Shown one piece after another: positions 10,344 through 61,901 of a stretch of 64,000 bases of DNA. The position numbers were made by a program, and so were the translations under genes. The first letter of the stretch is position 1. The number at the start of each line of letters is the position of its first letter. The notes under the pieces are model-generated. The model ran no database searches. It was not told where the DNA came from and worked only from the letters and a program-made list of their open reading frames with translations. Source of the stretch: Bolinopsis microptera (taxonomy: Eukaryota; Ctenophora; Tentaculata; Lobata; Bolinopsidae); assembly GCF_026151205.1 (NCBI RefSeq), contig NC_087078.1:5969675-6033674 (forward strand), written 5' to 3'.

Positions 10344-23108
<12,765 letters not shown>

Positions 23109-23409: not shown

Positions 23410-24387
23410 TACCTTACTCGGGATTATTATAACCGGGATAAAGTGGTGGGTTTTGGAAGATTCCGCCATATTTTTCCCGGTCAAAAATTTTACCAGTCAT
23501 AAAAAAACCCGCCGACTCAGATTATGGGGTTCCAAGGGGGTGGTGATCATCATATTTTACCTGAAGTCTCATATGTGCTAGAGAAGACTTTTGAAGCAGT
23601 GGATGGAGGGCTGTAACTTTATTGGCGGTTGCTACCATAATTTCGTTATAAAAATCACAATTTGGTTATAGAAATCAGATTTCAGGGTGGACCGTGATTA
23701 TCACTTTTCTTGCCCATGAAGTGAGTAAACTGTGCCACTATTTCATGGTCCACGGTGGATTGATTACTGGAGCAGTTGAAGATGCAAAGCCAAGACGTTC
23801 CCCAATACCAAGCGGTGGGCAGGAAATTAAGCTCCGGCTGACCTTCAGAGCAGTAGCCCCATTAGCGGACAAAATGAAAGTCTTGTTAAGACAACAATAC
23901 AACTTCGAATTTGACGGTCAGCAGCAGGGGGATATCAATAATGATAATGGAGGGGTCATTAGGGCTGTAGGACTATTGAGCGGAGGACTGTTGAGCGTAG
24001 GACTGTAGGTCGGTGAAGGTCGAAAGTAGGACTGTAGAGCGGTGTCAAATCGCCAGGGTAGGACTCTAGAGCGGCCGCCCTTATAGATCTCACAACATGA
24101 GGACTTTAGAGCGGTACGATCCTAAAATGAGGACTGTAGAGCGGTGGACTGTTGAGCGCGAGCGGTGGACTGTACATGTAGGCCGGTGAAGGTCGGAAGT
24201 AGGACTGTAGAGCGGCCCTCCCTTATAGATCCCATAAACATGAGGACTCTAGAGCGGTACCATCCTATAACATAAGGACTCTATAGCAGTTGAAAATTTG
24301 AAGATTGAACACTCAACAAAGCTAAGTTATAAATTGAACTGTTCGTATCAATGTGATTTCGCTAAGTAGAGTACCGATCAAGTTCGT

Positions 24388-24419
<32 letters not shown>

Positions 24420-25299
24420 GTTCTGGTCAACGGTTTCTGGCCTCTTACTTAATGAGGGAGGCCTTCTCGCCGTGCCCACAGAATGCAACTCCTGCTAGTT
24501 CGTGCAGATCATTTATGAATGAGGATCGCATCGCGTGACGCTTTAGCGCCTACTAAGGATATCTCATGTTCATCAATCTGGTGACGGGACTGATTCAGAT
24601 CAGATCCCATCGCAGTGCGATATCTTGTTAGGATTTCGAAGGTATGGTATAAATATCACGGAGTATCCAGTTTTCGTATATCAAATTCGAGAGTCCTCAT
24701 GTTATGGGATCTATAAGGGAAGGCCGCTCTACAGTCCTACTTCCGACCTTCACCGGCCTACAGTCCACCGCTCAACAGTCCACTGCTCTACAGTCCTCAT
24801 TTTAGGATCGTACCGCTCTAAAGTCCTCATGTTGTGAGATCTATAAGGGCGGCCGCTCTAGAGTCCTACCCTGGCGATTTGACACCGCTCTACAGTCCTA
24901 CTTCCGACCTTCACCGACCTACAGTCCTACGCTTAACAGTCCACCGCTCAATAGTCCTGCTCCCGACATTAGCGATAATGAGAATGAGAATACGCTTTAA
25001 TGAAGATTTGACTTATTATTGCTATAGATTTATTTTCCTTTAAATACTAGACGTGTCTTTTTTTCTATTTCTGAGTAATATCAGTAACTGTAAATTGAAA
25101 TAACTTCTTTAACAAGTAACAAAAACAGAAATTTCGGTTGAAAATTTGTTGACCTCTGAAAAAAAACTTGAAAGGTCGGCCACCGGTAAATACATGACCG
25201 GGATAATTTGGCGGGTTTTGGGAAATTCCGCCATATTTTTCCCGGTTATTAATTTTCCCAGTCATAAATTAACCCGCTATAATATTCCCGAGTAAGGTA
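23410..25299. mobile_element. 1.9-kb DNA transposon with TACCTTACTCGGGA termini and foldback core
   Basis: The left end TACCTTACTCGGGATTATTATA (23410) and right end TATAATATTCCCGAGTAAGGTA (25299) are inverted repeats. TA precedes the left end; the right flank is TG, one mismatch from a TA duplication. A 100-bp block inside each end (ACCGGGATAA...TTCCGCCATATTTTTCCCGGT) is instead in direct orientation. The middle holds a near-perfect 270-bp palindrome, listed separately. No recognisable transposase is present. The terminal sequence resembles that of the pogo MITE (TACCTTATCGGACC), so mobilisation by the same enzyme is possible. That is inference. Confidence 0.7.
23969..24958. repeat. Foldback: 270-280-bp inverted arms made of GGACTGTAGAGCGG units
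   Basis: The left arm is 23969-24250 and the right arm 24690-24958. The arms are reverse complements with only a few differences. Each arm contains about nine variants of AGGACTNTAGAGCGG separated by unique spacers such as GGTCGGTGAAGGTCGGAAGT and CAAATCGCCAGGG. The spacer of about 440 bp has a short CT run and no long ORF. Confidence 0.9.
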
Positions 25300-25918
25300 T
25301 GCAAGTCGTTCGAGAATAGCAAACCTAGTTAAACGCTTAATTGTTACAAGCAAAAAATAGCATCTGCCTATACAAACTGCTATAGAAACTTTTCCAGTGT
25401 ATACACTATACATTGGACTCATGAAATGTGTCTATCATTCCAGAGATTTTTAAGCTAAATTTGTTAACATTCTATCATTGTGATGAAGACTATTGTAAAT
25501 AGCTTCACCCATTTGAACGACACAAAGAGGTTAAAAAGGAACCCACTGAGTGCTTCAGCGCTGAAATGGATTCACAAGCAATAAATAGTAAAATATAAAA
25601 TAGCTGATGTACTATAACGGTCCTCATATTAACATAAATCTATTAATAATAAAGAAAAGCTCCGTTGATATTAAGGTATGCTTTTCCTTGTATTGGGATT
25701 ATTGTATTGCTGTCAGCCAATGAGAAGTGAGATTTATAGACGCAAGCCAATTACAGGCAAGAGATCTAAGCACGTGGGTAACCATGGAAACTTCACGTGT
25801 ACCCGGTGTGATTAGCTAGCACAAGTCATTAAGGAGACCGGGTATAGTTTGTACTGGAACAAATCTGTGCAGATTAGGTCTTAGAATGCTTTCTAGATTA
25901 ATCATAGCATATTTTATG

Positions 25919-26105
25919 ATTTCTTCAATACTCCAAATCATGACGTTTGCCAAGTTTCAGCGTTGACGGAAATCGTTTTACACCGTTCTCATATTCAACA
26001 GTGTGATCTCGATAAGAAAATGATAAGACAACAGCTGCTGAACTATGACATCATTCTGTATTCAGTGTCAGGATACGGGACTACATCCTGGTATCACAGT
26101 GCACA
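25919..26105. repeat. 186-bp direct repeat, copy A
   Basis: It runs from CAATACTCCAAATCATGACG to about CATCCTGGTATCACAGTGCA. Copy B at 27823-28008 is about 97% identical and in the same orientation. One frame is open through both copies. Confidence 0.9.
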
Positions 26106-26142
26106 AACTGACTACCTGTCAGCCACTGTATAATATCTACAG

Positions 26143-27242
26143 CTAGGCACACTTTGGGCACACTTGGGGCACACGGCACACCTGGGACACAAAATTGAAT
26201 TTCCTGGGGCACACTTGGGGCACAGTTGGGGTACAGTTGGGGCAAAAAGTTACTTGGGGCACACTTGGGGCACACTTGGGGCAAATACAGTTTGGGCACA
26301 CTTGGGGCACATTTGGGGCAAATACAAAGGAAATACAACCGAGGAAGAAGAGTTGTTTGTAAATGGATACTTGGGGGATTTTGTAGGACTACAGACGAGT
26401 GTTTTCTAGTGGAATTTCCTAACAACCGGAGGGACCACCACACTCTCCTTCTTGATAAAGCTCTACGTTGCCCCAGGAACCACCATCTTGACTGACAAGT
26501 GGAGAGGTTACAGTGCTCTTCCACGCTTCCACGGTATGGATTTGTACATCTTGTGGTCAACCATTCAAGAGGCTTCGCTGACCCCCTAACTGGCGTTCAC
26601 ACCAACGCATGTGAAGGGATGTGGTTTCACGCAAAGAGACACATGCTCCGTGGCCATTGAAGGACCCGTGCAGACTCTGAAGCCTAAGAGATAGCCCTCT
26701 GTGAGTTCATGTGGCGTAAGCGTCATAACCTCACCCGATCGGACTCATCTGTGAGAAGAGCCTTTAATAGCGAAATTCATAAGCTGATGAGAAGAGTATT
26801 ATCCTGAATAGTTGAATGTATAATTTTATTAATGTATTGGTTGTATTGGTTTTCAGGAATTAGGTTAATTTTAATTAAATTAAAAATTACGTATACATTG
26901 TTTGTCACTTATTATTACACCAGAAGATTGTTTACCTTAGTCATTTTTTGCCCCAAGTGTGCCCCATGTAACTTTTTGCCCCATCTGTGCCCCAAGTGAG
27001 CCCCAGCTGTTCCCCAACTGTATTTGCCCCAAATGTGCCTCAAGTGTGCCCCAAGTAACTTTGTGCCCCAAGACGTGTGCCCCAGCTGTATTTGCCCCAA
27101 GTGTGCTTGCCCCAAGTGTGCCCCAAGTGTGCCCCAAGTAACTTTCTGCCCCAACTGTGTCCCAAGTGTGCCCCAGGAAATTCATTTTGTGCCCCAGGTG
27201 TGCCCAAAGTGTGCCCCAAGTGTGCCCCAAGTGTGCCTAGCT
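26143..27242 (+). mobile_element. Merlin/ISXO2-type transposon relic with tandem-repeat inverted termini
   Basis: Both ends start AGCTAGGCACACTT as inverted repeats and consist of many copies of a 12-bp unit CTTGGGGCACAC interrupted by AAAAAGTTA-, GAATTTCC- and CAAATACAG-type spacers in mirrored order (26146-26328 and 26951-27237). The centre encodes transposase fragments in shifting frames: GGFCRTTDECFLVEFPNN, GTTILTDKWRGYSAL, VNHSRGFADPLTGVHTN and CEFMWRKRHNL. These match, from memory, the DDE domain of Merlin/IS1595 (ISXO2-like) transposases, including the Asp of TDKW and the Glu following HTN. At least two frameshifts and several stops make it dead, and the N-terminal part is missing. Confidence 0.8.
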
Positions 27243-27822
27243 AGATTACCAAATTGCCACAGAATCATAATGGTAACACGAATCCTGTCCGACAGCAACT
27301 TTTTCTTGTGTTTGAAGTGATATCTCAAATTTGGCAAATAGAAATTCACCCAAACTTGCACATATTATTCAGCATATAACCATCATACTTGATGGAAAGT
27401 TTCAAGAAAATCGTATGGTAGGATCCGACATAAACTATTGTCCGAAAAACCTAACTTTGGAGGCGGACAGGAGTCGCTGTCGGACAGGAGTCGCCCAATA
27501 TACTATAATATAGAAACTACAGACTTCCTAGTTTGTTGTGATCTGAAGTTAGGATTTAGACCAGTGCTCTATCACAGCGGTCATTAATTGGTATATTGGT
27601 GGTTACTAATGAGTTTACTCTGTTATTACGTTGAGCAAGCATAGTACCTATATGTTAAGGAATCCTGCTTATTAAACAGAGTCACGGAGGAAATATAAAG
27701 TCCTTGCAAATTATGGCTAACATCATATTAATTACGCAACTATTATTATATATTTTATTATTAGATGGCAGTAAAGAAGGCTTTCTAGAATAGTTGATAG
27801 TTATGTTATGTAGGATATTGGT

Positions 27823-28008
27823 TTCCTCAATACTCCAAATCATGACGTTTGCCAAGTTTCAGCGTTGACGGAAATCGTTTTACACCGTTCTCATATCCAA
27901 GAGTGTGATCTCGATAAGAAAATGATAAGACAACAGCTGCTGAACTATGACATCATTCTGTCTTCAGTGTCAGGATACGGGACTACATCCTGGTATCTCA
28001 GTGCACGA
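27823..28008. repeat. 186-bp direct repeat, copy B
   Basis: Partner of 25919-26105. The two bracket the Merlin relic at unequal distances. Differences are few and include TAT/TCT, CAC/CTC and CAACAG/CAAGAG changes. Confidence 0.9.
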
Positions 28009-28472
28009 ACTGGCATATACAATATTAATTATACACATAATTAACTCTATAATTGGAAATGGCTAATGATAATAAAAGCTACAGACCTGTCGGCTTGTTT
28101 GGATTGGGTTAAGATTGTCGTGGTCTGTTATTAGAGTAACTGGTCTATTTGGGTTTACAAGAGGTTTATTAGTGGTTTACTGGCATATTAACTGAATCAC
28201 GTGATACAAAAAACGTTCAATTGAATCTTGAAATTACACAATCTATTAGCCCAATTGTTATCCGCCACGAATATTTCACCAAACAGCGAAGGTGTTTGTA
28301 TACTATTAGTAATCTTATTAGTTAATAAGATAATATGTGTGTTAACAAATATTTACCATATTCAACGTGTAAAAATTATGATGTTTTCCTGATCAATGTA
28401 TGAATTTAGTGAGACGGCCAATGCCTTTGACAAATTATTTAGTCAGCAGATAAAAATATAACCGTATAAGCG

Positions 28473-47324: not shown

Positions 47325-47515
47325 CGTGACTCCATCATCTCATTGTGACGACATTGTGACTCCATCATCTCATTGTGACGACATTGTGACTCCATTATCT
47401 CATTGTGACGACATTGTGAAGACATTCTCTCATTGTGACGACATTGTGACGACATTGTGACGACATTGTCTCATTGTGACGACATTGTGACTCCATTGTC
47501 TCATTGTGACGGGAT
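47325..47515. repeat. Minisatellite of CATTGTGACGA units
   Basis: Higher-order 30-bp repeats (CTCCATCATCTCATTGTGACGACATTGTGA) grade into a simple 12-bp CATTGTGACGA array. Confidence 0.85.
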
Positions 47516-48607
47516 GGTGACTGTTGATTGGGGACGCGTGATGATCCTCGCAAGTGCACGCAACATATTGGCATGATGCCAATATGACCATGACCAACAT
47601 GTCACCACTCACCAAGAATAAGGTTGGAACACATTCTGAATTAAGAAACCGTTTTGTATTAAACACAGCCCGCCCTTATCCGTAAGACGTCCGTTACCTG
47701 CCACACCGCTACCCCTCCAGCTTCCTGCCTGACTCTTCAAATGAAAACCGCAGAAATGCACTATGTTATTTGGTAGATTGGTACAATATCGTACCAATAT
47801 TGGTCACATGTTAGCCTCAGTGACTTTGCTGAACTCAATTCTTGGTCACATGCTGTTAACCAAAGTAACTCTGCTGAACTCACATCTTACCTGCGAAGAT
47901 ACGCGTGCAGTTGGATCCCTGGAGACGTGTGCAGCTTGATGGCATCACGACCACACCGCTGACGATACCAGCTTTATGATGGCCTAATAGACGTCACTGA
48001 TAGCCCATCAAGGATACTTATCATCCTGCAGTCACGGAAAACCACTCGAGCAAGGCTTCTCGGGGAACATTCTTTGATGGTGGTGTATATAAACCGCTGC
48101 ACTTATTGTTTTAGGCCAGTATTTTGCCTGTTCCGGTTTTATTTGCTGTATAAGATTTTAAGCTAGTTTATCGGTTTTAATTTAAATTGTTTTTATGTGC
48201 TCGATCACTAACAAAATGTTCATAGGTTTAACCGTGCATGATTTCAATGGTGCAAATATTCGACTATGATTATTTTTACTGTGACGCAAAATTTTGAACA
48301 GTCAATAATATGGATACAAATGGTAGCTTATTGCTGCAATTTTTTGCATCTTTCCACATCACATTGGATACGAATCTAAATCAAATTGGAGCTTTGATAA
48401 AGTAATATCGGTTTTTTGCTAAAACAGAACTAACTCTTGAAAAGATTTACTCGAAGTAAGTGAGATATAAAAGAGCATAATGTTTACTGTGCACAATTCG
48501 AACTATATGAGTTGTTGCTGACAAGATAGATGGCCCTGTCATTTTATCATTTTATTCCTTTTACTTGCTTACCCAAAAAACGCAACGCGCAACTGTATTA
48601 TAAGTTA

Positions 48608-49083
48608 GGCCAGTTGGTAGATCACCGACCGGCTATAAGCCGGCTACTAACCGGCTATAAGCCGGCTTATAGCCGGCTACAATTTTTATAGCCGGCTATA
48701 AGCCGGCTTATAGCTGTTTTCGCTGAATTTCTTATAGCCGGCTCCTGACTATCGTTCAGTACGATGTAGTTGAGTTAATATCTTATAACCGGCTTATAAC
48801 CGGCTTATAGCCGGCTTATAACCACTTTCGATACCTAAACGGCTAATAGCCGGCTTATATCCGGCTAATAGCCGTTTTCACTGAATTTCTTATAGCCGAT
48901 ACCTAAACGGCTAACAGCCGGCTTATAACCGGCTAATAGCCGTCGCTCAACAACAAATGTAAGCGGCTACTAACCGGCTATAAGCCGGCTTATAGCCGGC
49001 TATAAAAATTGTAGCCGGCTATAAGCCGGTTTATAGCCGGCTTATAACCGGCTGATAGCCGGTCGGTGATCTACCAATTTCCC
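48608..49083. mobile_element. Foldback MITE, 476 bp, perfect 8-bp target duplication
   Basis: It is bounded by ATAAGTTA at 48600-48607 and 49084-49091. The termini are GGCCAGTTGGTAGATCACCG and, inverted, GGGAAATTGGTAGATCACCG. The whole element is filled with variants of AGCCGGCTTATA in both orientations, so it can fold along nearly its full length. It has no ORF of note. The 8-bp duplication and GG start fit Merlin or hAT-like mobilisation, with Merlin favoured by the GG end. That is inference. Confidence 0.9.
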
Positions 49084-59259: not shown

Positions 59260-60927
59260 TTAACTGGATGGAATGGAGTTAGCTAAGGTTGAACGCTTTG
59301 CAAATGTTACAGGTTTCACGAAAGGTAGAGGCTTGACGAAAATGGGGCCGCCAACACTATCGATGTTTTGTATAGAATTGGAAACCATGCTGCTTTCATG
59401 AAAAGTTTGTGATTTTTCTCCGTTCCGCTGATGGGAACCCAAAATTGACTTATGGCTAACACTATTAGAAAGACATTCCGATGATTGATGGCCATGTTTC
59501 TTCTGATGTAAAACTAAAGATGATTTCCAGCTAGTCCTGTAGGAACATTCAAAGCATTTAAATGGTTCTTCGCCAGTATGAGTCCGCTGATGTACAACTA
59601 AAGTTGATTTTTGGCATGCACTGTAGGAACATTTAGAACATTGATATGGTTTTTCGCCGGTATGACTCATCTGATGGGAAATTAAGTGTGATCTTTGGCT
59701 AGCACTATAGGAACAATCAGAACATTTAAAAGATTTTTCTCTGGAATGAGTTTTCTTATGAGAAACTAAGTGTGATTTTTGGCTAGCACTGTAGGAACAC
59801 TCAGAGCATTTATATGGTTTTTCTTTGGTATGAGTCCTCTGATGTCGAACTAAAGATGATTTTTGGCTAGCACTGTAGGAACATTCAGAGCATTTATATG
59901 GTTTTTCTCCGGTATGAGTCCTCTGGTGTGTAATTAATGATGATTTTCGCCTTGCACTGTAGGAACATTTAGAACATTTGTAAGGGGTTTCTCCGGTATG
60001 AGTCAGCTGATGTAAAACTAAAGATGATTTTTGCCTTGCACTGTAGGAACATATATTACATTTATATGGTTTTTCTTCGGTATGAGTCCTCTGATGTAAA
60101 AGTAAAGATAGTTTTTGCCTTGCACTGTAGGAACATTTTTTACATTTGTAAGGGGTTTCTCCGGCATGAGTCCACTGATGTACAACCAAAGTTGATTTTT
60201 GGCTTGTGCTGTATTGACATTTGGAACATTTAAACTGTTTTTCACTGTAAGAAGTTTCAAACAATTTTAATTGTTTTTGGATTCCTTTCATCCACTCTGT
60301 TTCGGCAGCAGAAATTTGGCGAAGTGTTGACTCATCATTGCTTTGCATAATTTCAGAACATGTAATCAGTTTTTCTTTGATATGAGTCCTATGATGTAAA
60401 ACTAAAGCTGATTTTTGGGCAGCACTATAGGAACAATCAGAACATTTAAACGGTTTTTCTCCGGTATGACTTTTCTGATGGGAAGCTAAGTATGATTTTC
60501 GGCTTGTACTGTATGGACATTCAGAACAGTTAAACCGTATTTCACTGGTATAAAACGGCACATCGAGAAGCATTGTCAATTTTGTTTCGGTGCCGTAAGA
60601 AGTTTCAGAGCATTTTGATTGTTTTTGGGTTACTTTCAACCACTCTGTTTCGGCAGCAGAGGTTTGGCAAAGTCTTAACTCATTATTGTTTTTTACAATC
60701 TGTGAAGATGTTTGGTCTTTATTTGTGTAGTCAGATATTGTAGAATTAAATTCTTGACGGTGTTCCGTAAATGATTCTTGGGCAAGGTGCTGCATTTCGG
60801 AAGGATTTGAATACATTTCTAATTTAATGAGAAAATCATCTTCCTCCTTCTTGATATCTGCCATTATCAATTCTGGTATAATACTTTCTTGTTCTATCTT
60901 CGTCTCATCTTTAAACTCTGGATTCAT
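59260..60927 (-). CDS. C2H2 zinc-finger protein, 11 fingers
   Basis: Single coding exon of 555 residues from ATG at 60927. The frame is open further up, but TATTTTCAG just before 60944 is a good acceptor, so the coding start is taken as MNPEFKDETKIEQE and the 5' UTR is spliced. Eleven C-x2-C-x12-H-x3-H fingers occur: two, a spacer with a degenerate finger, then nine in tandem with HTGEKPYKC-type linkers. Nearly all share C-x2-CSYSASQKSSL, so the helix positions that read DNA vary little. A 25-residue module (SAAETEW(L/M)K..QKQ.K..ETSY) occurs twice, before the first and second finger blocks. The protein is presumably a nuclear DNA-binding regulator. The N-terminus is acidic with no KRAB or BTB domain. 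A minus-strand AATAAA sits at 59113-59108. Confidence 0.88.
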   Translation of the reverse strand: MNPEFKDETKIEQESIIPELIMADIKKEEDDFLIKLEMYSNPSEMQHLAQESFTEHRQEFNSTISDYTNKDQTSSQIVKNNNELRLCQTSAAETEWLKVTQKQSKCSETSYGTETKLTMLLDVPFYTSEIRFNCSECPYSTSRKSYLASHQKSHTGEKPFKCSDCSYSAAQKSALVLHHRTHIKEKLITCSEIMQSNDESTLRQISAAETEWMKGIQKQLKLFETSYSEKQFKCSKCQYSTSQKSTLVVHQWTHAGETPYKCKKCSYSARQKLSLLLHQRTHTEEKPYKCNICSYSARQKSSLVLHQLTHTGETPYKCSKCSYSARRKSSLITHQRTHTGEKPYKCSECSYSASQKSSLVRHQRTHTKEKPYKCSECSYSASQKSHLVSHKKTHSREKSFKCSDCSYSASQRSHLISHQMSHTGEKPYQCSKCSYSACQKSTLVVHQRTHTGEEPFKCFECSYRTSWKSSLVLHQKKHGHQSSECLSNSVSHKSILGSHQRNGEKSQTFHESSMVSNSIQNIDSVGGPIFVKPLPFVKPVTFAKRSTLANSIPSS

Positions 60928-61015: not shown

Positions 61016-61901
61016 TACCTTATCGGACCTTATTTGGACGGACATTACATGAACGGACATAATTATGAACGGACATTAGTGTGAACGCTCGAAGGCATTC
61101 AAAACACAAAATCCGAAGTTTTTTTGACGGTTTTTTGACTTTTTTTAAAATTTCAGCAAATGATTTTTGAATCCATTTTTTTATACAGTTAGTTAAGAAA
61201 AGCAGTCATTAAGCAGTAAAAAGTTTAAAAATGTGTACTGATCAGTGTTCACATATCATCTTCATCAAATGGGTTTTCGTGCATGAAATAGTCCATGCTT
61301 AAAGCATCAGTGATTTCTAGCTTTATGGAAACCTTTTTTTATCAAACTACCCCGGTCCTGCATTTCAGTGTTAACTTTTACAAGCCATTCGGCGTGAAGT
61401 GGTTTTATCTTAGACAACTTAAGGTTAACCTTAACATCACGTGGAGCTTTCCTAGCACTGTTTCATTACCGCCCCCGAGTAATATGAACTATAACAACGT
61501 CGACAATGTCCTTGGCAACACGATTTACCCATAATATCTAGAGGCTGGAACAAGTTTGTCATGTTGGCGGGGACTAGTTCATGAACTATGTTGTTGAGTG
61601 CCATAATTTCGTTGACTTTTTTCCGTCAAGTGACCCTTGAAAACATCATATACTAGTAGTAGTAGTAGTAGAGTTTTCTGTGCCTCCGGCAGACCAAGGA
61701 GAACCTTTTCGTCGTTAACTTACGGCACAATAAAGTTCTCAAAGTTGTCATATTCTGGACAAAAAGTTCGAAATGGAAAAATTTTTGACTTTAACTTGGA
61801 CGGACATTAATTGAACGGACTTTATTTGAACGGACATTAAGATGAACGCTAGGGCCTCCAGCGTTCAAGTAATGTCCGTCCAAATAAGGTCCGATAAGGT
61901 A
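61016..61901 (-). mobile_element. Pogo-derived non-autonomous transposon, copy 2 (886 bp)
   Basis: It has the same TACCTTATCGGACCTTATTT termini as the copy at 20920-21823, but inverted, with the same internally deleted transposase tail (FQPLD region read on the minus strand). The right flank is TA and the left flank is TC. It lies within 100 bp of the first known exon of the zinc-finger gene, likely in its 5' UTR intron. Confidence 0.85.

Follow-up and report, generated by a model that had tools for sequence, protein, structure and literature searches.

The window analysed here is a stretch of 64,000 nucleotides of the Bolinopsis microptera genome (contig NC_087078.1, forward-strand positions 5,969,675 to 6,033,674), and lies on a contig of about 20 Mb in an assembly of 264.65 Mb (232 contigs) that was searched throughout. 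At 26146-27258 it holds a broken, non-autonomous Merlin/IS1595 copy of the family termed F1, in which a Merlin/ISXO2-type centre is bounded on either side by an array of TTGGGGCACAC-like units, the two arrays being inverted relative to each other (Table 1). An earlier note on this DNA had described the termini as arrays of a 12-bp repeat with mirrored spacers, extending from 26143 to 27242. The arrays and their mirroring were borne out: at 1 mismatch there are 12 units on the left and 21 on the right, compared with a mean of 1.62 (maximum 5) and 2.46 (maximum 7), respectively, in 500 dinucleotide shuffles per array, and the spacer run 11,11,17,11,11,15 is present in both arms (the complete left series being 11,18,22,11,11,11,17,11,11,15,11,11). 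The unit length and the limits had to be corrected. Periodicity, core-spacing and shuffle analyses all led to rejection of a 12-bp period in favour of 11 bp, the length of 58 of the 88 core-to-core spacings of up to 45 bp in eight F1 ends; none was of 10 or 12 bp at 1 mismatch, and six were of 9, 10 or 12 bp when looser cores with 3 mismatches were used. The right end lies not at 27242 but at 27258, at the outer edge of a terminal module that was also recovered, with 0 mismatches, in the genome-wide end search (C7:5996905-5996932). The outer palindrome AGCTAGGCAC, considered as a target duplication, was rejected because it belongs to this module. No recognisable module was found in the left terminal 21 bp or so, and no target duplication at this copy, so the left boundary is given only as the start of the array, at 26146 rather than 26143. 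Since 194 bp of the right flank are repeated to the left of the element, and a genome search with this repeat returned no matches beyond these two places, local repair or rearrangement, of which the repeat would be the mark, may have removed the left F1 terminus.

Table 1. Features of the F1 copy and its flanks, other array-ended elements in the window, and terminal repeat units of the remaining families
Feature	Position in window	Strand	Description
194-bp direct repeat, left flank	25917..26110	+	96% identical to 27819..28012
Left terminal array of F1	26146..26326	+	13 TTGGGGCACAC-type units at 2 mismatches
Transposase remnant, split between two frames	26437..26645 (26437-26523, 26520-26645)	+	PF12762 matches below cut-off
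C-terminal transposase remnant	26688..26807	+	Ends AFNSEIHKLMRRVLS; by-eye comparison with L002 C-terminus
Right terminal array of F1	26946..27236	-	About 22 units at 2 mismatches, spacers mirrored
Right terminal module, true outer end	27237..27258	-	GGCAATTTGGTAATCTAGCTAG; exact F1 module match
194-bp direct repeat, second copy, right flank	27819..28012	+	96% identical to 25917..26110
Second array-ended element, F9	48608..49083		Ends GGCCAGTTGG.../GGGAAATTGG...; perfect 8-bp duplication ATAAGTTA; 11-bp CCGGCTATAAG arrays
Third array-ended element	23963..24964		15-bp AGGACTGTTGAGCGT units, GG ends, inverted ends of about 285 bp
Family F2			337-aa open frame; unit CTCGGGCACAC; 11-bp step
Family F3			328-aa open frame; unit CGGTTAAGAAC; 11-bp step
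Family F4			Units GTCTATGCAAC and ACCGGCTACTA together in one end; 11-bp step
Family F7			318-aa open frame; unit AAGACAACATT; 11-bp step
Family F8			Unit CGGCAGTACGG; 11-bp step
Family F9	48608-49083 (one copy)		Unit GCCGGCTATAA; 11-bp step
Family F5			320 aa; dyad units GTCCATGGAC, 3-6 per end
Family F6			295 aa; dyad units GTCCGCGGAC, 3-6 per end

The centre of the window copy retains the TDKW and VNHS...VHTN.CEG blocks, as the earlier note had recognized, and its translated pieces do match the Pfam profile PF12762, although at 16.8 and 14.3 bits (E 0.007 and 0.04) they fall below the cut-off of 27 bits. A Merlin/ISXO2 origin is supported by the F1 relative L002, in which a 162-aa open piece scores 42 bits. 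The catalytic residues of the Merlin transposase are taken here to be D, D and E; the block with the first D, which reads DESKFGKRKY in relatives, was not found in the frame-broken centre, and the window copy thus has no intact transposase. The true ends of the family (GGCAATTTGG..., GGCAATTTGGTAATCTAGCTAGGCACAC) are supplied by the relatives L002, L004 and L007, and the target duplications looked for at the window copy, where the left end is lost, are found in these relatives instead, at 8 bp (8/8 in L004, 7/8 in L002, none in L007). The terminal inverted repeats of F1 to F9 start with GG, and so does the right terminus of the window copy. That the arrays form the termini of other copies too is supported by 118 F1 ends genome-wide at up to 3 mismatches, against 0 for a reversed-pattern control; many of the listed matches stand in facing pairs.

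A profile search of the genome gave 58 PF12762 matches, and the loci analysed cover 34 of them, 30 with 1.5-kb flanks and four in F1 loci, the other 24 having been left out. Nine families could be delimited, and the inverted ends are repeat-built in all nine, a proportion to be read with the procedure in mind, as most copies were delimited via long inverted arms and any Merlin copy whose ends are short and plain would have escaped detection. An 11-bp step also characterizes the terminal arrays of six families besides F1 (F2, F3, F4, F7, F8 and F9), whose units are largely unrelated in their letters. Among 20 eight-kb loci, L040, L050, L053 and L056 had no clear end pair, and F10 (L026/L056) is thus undelimited, as are the F1 fragments L003, L005, L006 and L008 and the loci L027, L029 and L035-L037. 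Perfect 8-bp duplications flank 17 of the 23 elements with both ends delimited: 14 of 20 in the first set, together with L054 (after correction of its F3 ends), L060 and a second F9 element beside the F4 element of L049. The remaining six are L002 (7/8), L052 (6/8) and L007, L057, L039 and L030, where there is none. The second F9 element is 847 bp long (L049 5890-6736), adjoins the F4 element and has the duplication TAAAAAAC. At the same threshold of 3 mismatches there are 98 F2 and 166 F9 ends genome-wide, with 0 for each reversed-pattern control, and immediately behind 84 of the 98 F2 end modules lie two more units at 11-bp spacing (a count obtained by hand matching of the end places to 88 module-plus-units places). 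The 161-bp F2 copy L060, with the perfect duplication TTTTATTG, consists of little beyond two end modules and array units, and could have shrunk after landing. CCGA occupies end positions 18-21 in six of nine families by first end and in 15 of 30 ends, with F3 scored one base short; the corrected F3 ends also carry it, save the left end of L054 (GCGA), F1 and F4 are without it, and we regard its conservation as no more than a hint.

Open frames of 318-337 aa in which the three blocks align were found in copies of F2, F3, F5 and F7. Each of the F2 copies L044, L046, L047 and L048 combines the 337-aa frame with a perfect duplication, and an identical 318-aa frame is common to five F7 places; on these grounds the F2 and F7 copies look recent. 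Two features of their interiors may be mentioned in passing. Between the F7 frame and the far end of L030 there is a 79-bp tandem repeat of 4.8 copies (2349-2727), and the sequences suggest that its copy number varies between near-identical F7 copies. The F2 interiors of L046, L048 and L057 contain GC-rich short repeats of the TCCCGC/TGTTCCGGC type outside the transposase frame, which may represent a second coding or low-complexity region. Pfam analysis of eight transposase frames from seven families found PF12762 in seven and not in the L007 piece, and a THAP domain in none of the eight. Helix-turn-helix hints fell below the cut-off (Sigma70_r4_2, E 0.00067, in F2; PAX, E 0.0097, in F7), and a sequence search for a related solved structure found none, the best match being dynactin subunit 4 (E 0.29). 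In a tree built from 26 of 36 distinct frames (the 10 below 120 aa having been dropped), F1, F2, F3, F4, F7 and F8 are separated from F5, F6 and F10 by a split with support of 100/100, although F8 is on a long branch and its placement is unsure. The tree therefore includes six of the seven 11-bp families, and all six fall opposite the 14/15-bp families F5 and F6. F9, which the tree does not include, is tied to Merlin by the character of its ends and duplications and by a PF12762 match lying between two F9 ends that face each other (C7:6622174-6625205).

The periodicity test covered 43 ends, 31 of them from the seven 11-bp families including F1, and lag 11 was the top lag in 27 of these 31. The exceptions were both ends of L004, where the arrays are short, and, by a hair, an F8 end at which lag 22 came top and an F9 end at which lag 41 did; in L002 the lag-11 peak barely exceeded the shuffle maximum and tied with lag 38 at one end. 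Per end, the arrays of these families range from 6 units to about 36. With strict cores, steps of 10 or 12 bp were absent from seven of eight core scans and made up 11 of 232 in F2; with looser cores, near-11 steps numbered 42 in F2 (of 10, 12 or 13 bp), 11 in F7, the six already given for F1, one in F9 and none in F3 or F8. The letters are far less constant. Units of the 11-bp families carry 0.9-2.5 substitutions each, and in F3 and F8, with 137 and 27 substitutions relative to the unit consensus, not one of 105 and 28 spacings, respectively, is a step of 9, 10, 12 or 13 bp. Even the free 11th base is retained as a position in F1 and F2 units, in which the majority base reaches 37% and 41%. 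Between families, the best circular match of the unit consensuses is at most 7 of 11 in 18 of 21 pairs, close to a random null with its mode at 5-6 of 11 and at least 8 in 147 of 5000 trials; the pairs above this are F1-F2 (9 of 11), F3-F4 (8) and F4-F9 (8). Because unit matches are near random in these 18 pairs and substitutions are many, yet the step is still 11, the step is conserved as the letters change. The signal in the other clade is weak: in F5, lag 15 was the top lag in 8 of 10 ends, mostly near the shuffle maximum, with 12 of 30 steps of 15 bp, and in F6 five of six steps were of 14 bp. Longer steps, of 14, 15, 17, 18, 29 and 36 bp, also recur, so the sites cannot all lie on one face of the helix, and helical phasing of all sites was not supported in view of the steps of 14-18 bp. 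As the link between period and clade rests on a single split, it may reflect plain inheritance.

Outside the delimited elements, 143,323 bases served as a control, the best-scoring row being counted per cluster of tandem arrays. Period 11 was found in 2 of 92 arrays, and a genome-wide preference for 11 bp was not supported; six arrays had period 22, two of them in an adjacent F9 element, and eight had period 15, some of the 15-16-bp arrays lying inside other repeat-ended elements. The inverted pairs outside delimited elements numbered 28 in 17 sources, with up to the first six per source listed; those of L049 belong to an F9 element, and L057 1649-3073 has a top lag of 11 with short arms. Within the window, a CATTGTGACGA minisatellite at 47326-47522 gives 11-, 30- and 60-bp rows, was counted under a longer period and looks like an ordinary array, no inverted partner being present among the pairs listed. 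A further tandem repeat, of 84 bp in about nine plus two copies, occupies 59502-60551; this is presumably the length to be expected of repeats coding for C2H2 zinc fingers. The element at 23963-24964, whose flanks GTCATTAG and GACATTAG match at 7 of 8 positions and whose end pattern occurs at 180 genome places, is probably a further Merlin-like family. Two copies of about 0.9 kb at 20922-21821 and 61018-61899 are of a different kind: their ends read CCTTATCGG, they are flanked by TA, and they contain 15-bp units of the CGGACATTACTTGGA type in either orientation. They look non-autonomous, their end pattern occurs at 1554 genome places, and, since their flanks share TA only, the family is probably not Merlin.

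The arrays, ends, duplications, spacing, clade split and open transposase frames are direct observations, and our working interpretation of them is that the arrays are putative transposase-binding sites, preserved in the window in a dead copy of a cut-and-paste Merlin element with an IS1595-type DDE transposase (probability roughly 0.6). Binding-site amplification at the F1 ends, as the earlier note had suggested, is plausible. Each F1-family end has two layers, a GG-starting terminal module of about 22 bp at the cleavage point and, inward of it, an array of sites directly repeated and facing the element centre. Each 11-bp unit would be one docking site for the N-terminal DNA-binding part of the transposase, a role that we infer for a zinc-ribbon-like stretch (CxxC...CxxC) and the helix-turn-helix-like stretch after it. 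Many protomers could then occupy neighbouring units, which would make for a higher local concentration and greater specificity and aid end pairing, with cleavage taking place at the terminal module only. Unit length would equal the footprint of one protomer and hence be kept, and the letters would drift along with the protein; the separate transposase clade has 14/15-bp dyad units, and arrays lengthen or shorten by whole units. A stricter form of this proposal, to which we are drawn only tentatively, is an ordered row in which each 11-bp unit would hold a single protomer (the counterpart in the other clade being a dyad for every 15 bp), the protein would fix the spacing and the letters would turn over with its DNA-binding domain, giving each family a private docking array.

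Such arrays could also have arisen by neutral minisatellite growth, a short repeat near an ancestral Merlin end having expanded by slippage or unequal exchange and been copied to the other end, with the period maintained by unit-wise exchange and descent. Array length does change in steps of a whole unit, F2 ends having 22-29 units in their outer 420 bp; this genome is also rich in other minisatellites and repeat-ended elements, and tandem repeats of other Merlin families have been read as possible proto-satellites (PMC8101967). We nevertheless consider this origin unlikely, because the step is still 11 where the letters are near random, a period rare in the ordinary arrays of the control, and because single-base slips are nearly absent with strict cores despite the many substitutions. 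In F2 there was no support for strong copying of one end onto the other: arms are 95.7-99.2% identical between copies and 88.8-91.2% identical between the two ends of one copy, so that the ends have not been freshly recopied.

Alternatively, the arrays may serve the DNA or the host, as bent or nucleosome-placing ends, as hairpins, for which the long inverted arms would be suited, or as sources of small RNA, or they may be products of a genome-wide process that builds repeat ends. Eleven base pairs is near one helical turn, and the ends of the TA-flanked family, whose flanks are unlike those of Merlin, are likewise built with 15-bp repeats, which weakens any account confined to Merlin and is the strongest result against reading the arrays as transposase-binding sites. 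We regard these possibilities as decidedly improbable, given that 15-bp units and the recurring 14-18-bp steps break helical phase and that, among the superfamilies covered, the TA-flanked family and Merlin make two cases only. That a low-complexity stretch merely resembles inverted arrays by chance or artefact is a negligible prospect, already refuted by the shuffle tests, the 118 genome ends against none in the control, and the target duplications.

This single genome contains seven Merlin or Merlin-like families in which the letters change while an 11-bp step stays nearly invariant, together with a sister clade whose step is different. They amount to a natural experiment on the co-evolution of transposase and site, and on whether repeat-built ends are an aid to movement or passengers. 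Because open transposase frames are present in several copies that seem to be of recent origin, the proposal is directly testable.

Among known systems, the sea urchin TU elements have inverted ends with an outer part of 15-bp tandem repeats and 8-bp duplications; as so described, they resemble the present elements in combining short-repeat inverted ends with duplications of this length. Transposon ends usually carry few protein sites. Elements of the Sleeping Beauty and Bari type, which have Tc1/mariner transposases, carry two or three per end, compared with the 6 to roughly 36 of the 11-bp families. The extra transposase sites of Sleeping Beauty and Bari-type elements lie inside the ends (PMC3688188). 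The same source reports that the THAP domain of the Galileo transposase binds sites in the tandem repeats of its terminal inverted repeats (PMC3688188). Galileo and Foldback are alike in having long inverted ends built from internal tandem repeats, a structure also present here, but Galileo has a P-type transposase with THAP, whereas seven of the eight frames described above have PF12762 and none has THAP. In Tetris, a Foldback-type element, the units are about 220 bp, as opposed to 11 or 15 bp here, and no autonomous source is known (PMC4079207).

The closest relatives remain the Merlin/IS1595 group, with which the present families share the DDE_Tnp_IS1595 transposase (PF12762), GG ends and 8-bp duplications. 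The earlier note had proposed a new architecture for Merlin, which overstates the case. A paper of 2021 had already described tandem repeats within Merlin, several Repbase Merlin families having them too, and array-built inverted repeats are known from Foldback and Galileo; the accessible sections of the 2021 paper also describe Merlin matches in three ctenophores, repeats of 6, 12, 52 and 163 bp in the 5' region, the 3' region or internally, and terminal inverted repeats of 26, 39 and 51 bp in some families (PMC8101967). Inverted ends built as fixed-step arrays are not described in those sections, S1 Table on Repbase families aside (PMC8101967), and among the literature matches listed, judged by title and opening of the abstract and with Repbase Reports and subscription papers outside the search, none concerned 11-bp arrays at Merlin ends. 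Compared with the Merlin elements of those sections, the inverted ends here are themselves arrays of short units, at both ends and with one step across many families, and the novel part is this 11-bp step, common to many Merlin families with largely unrelated units.
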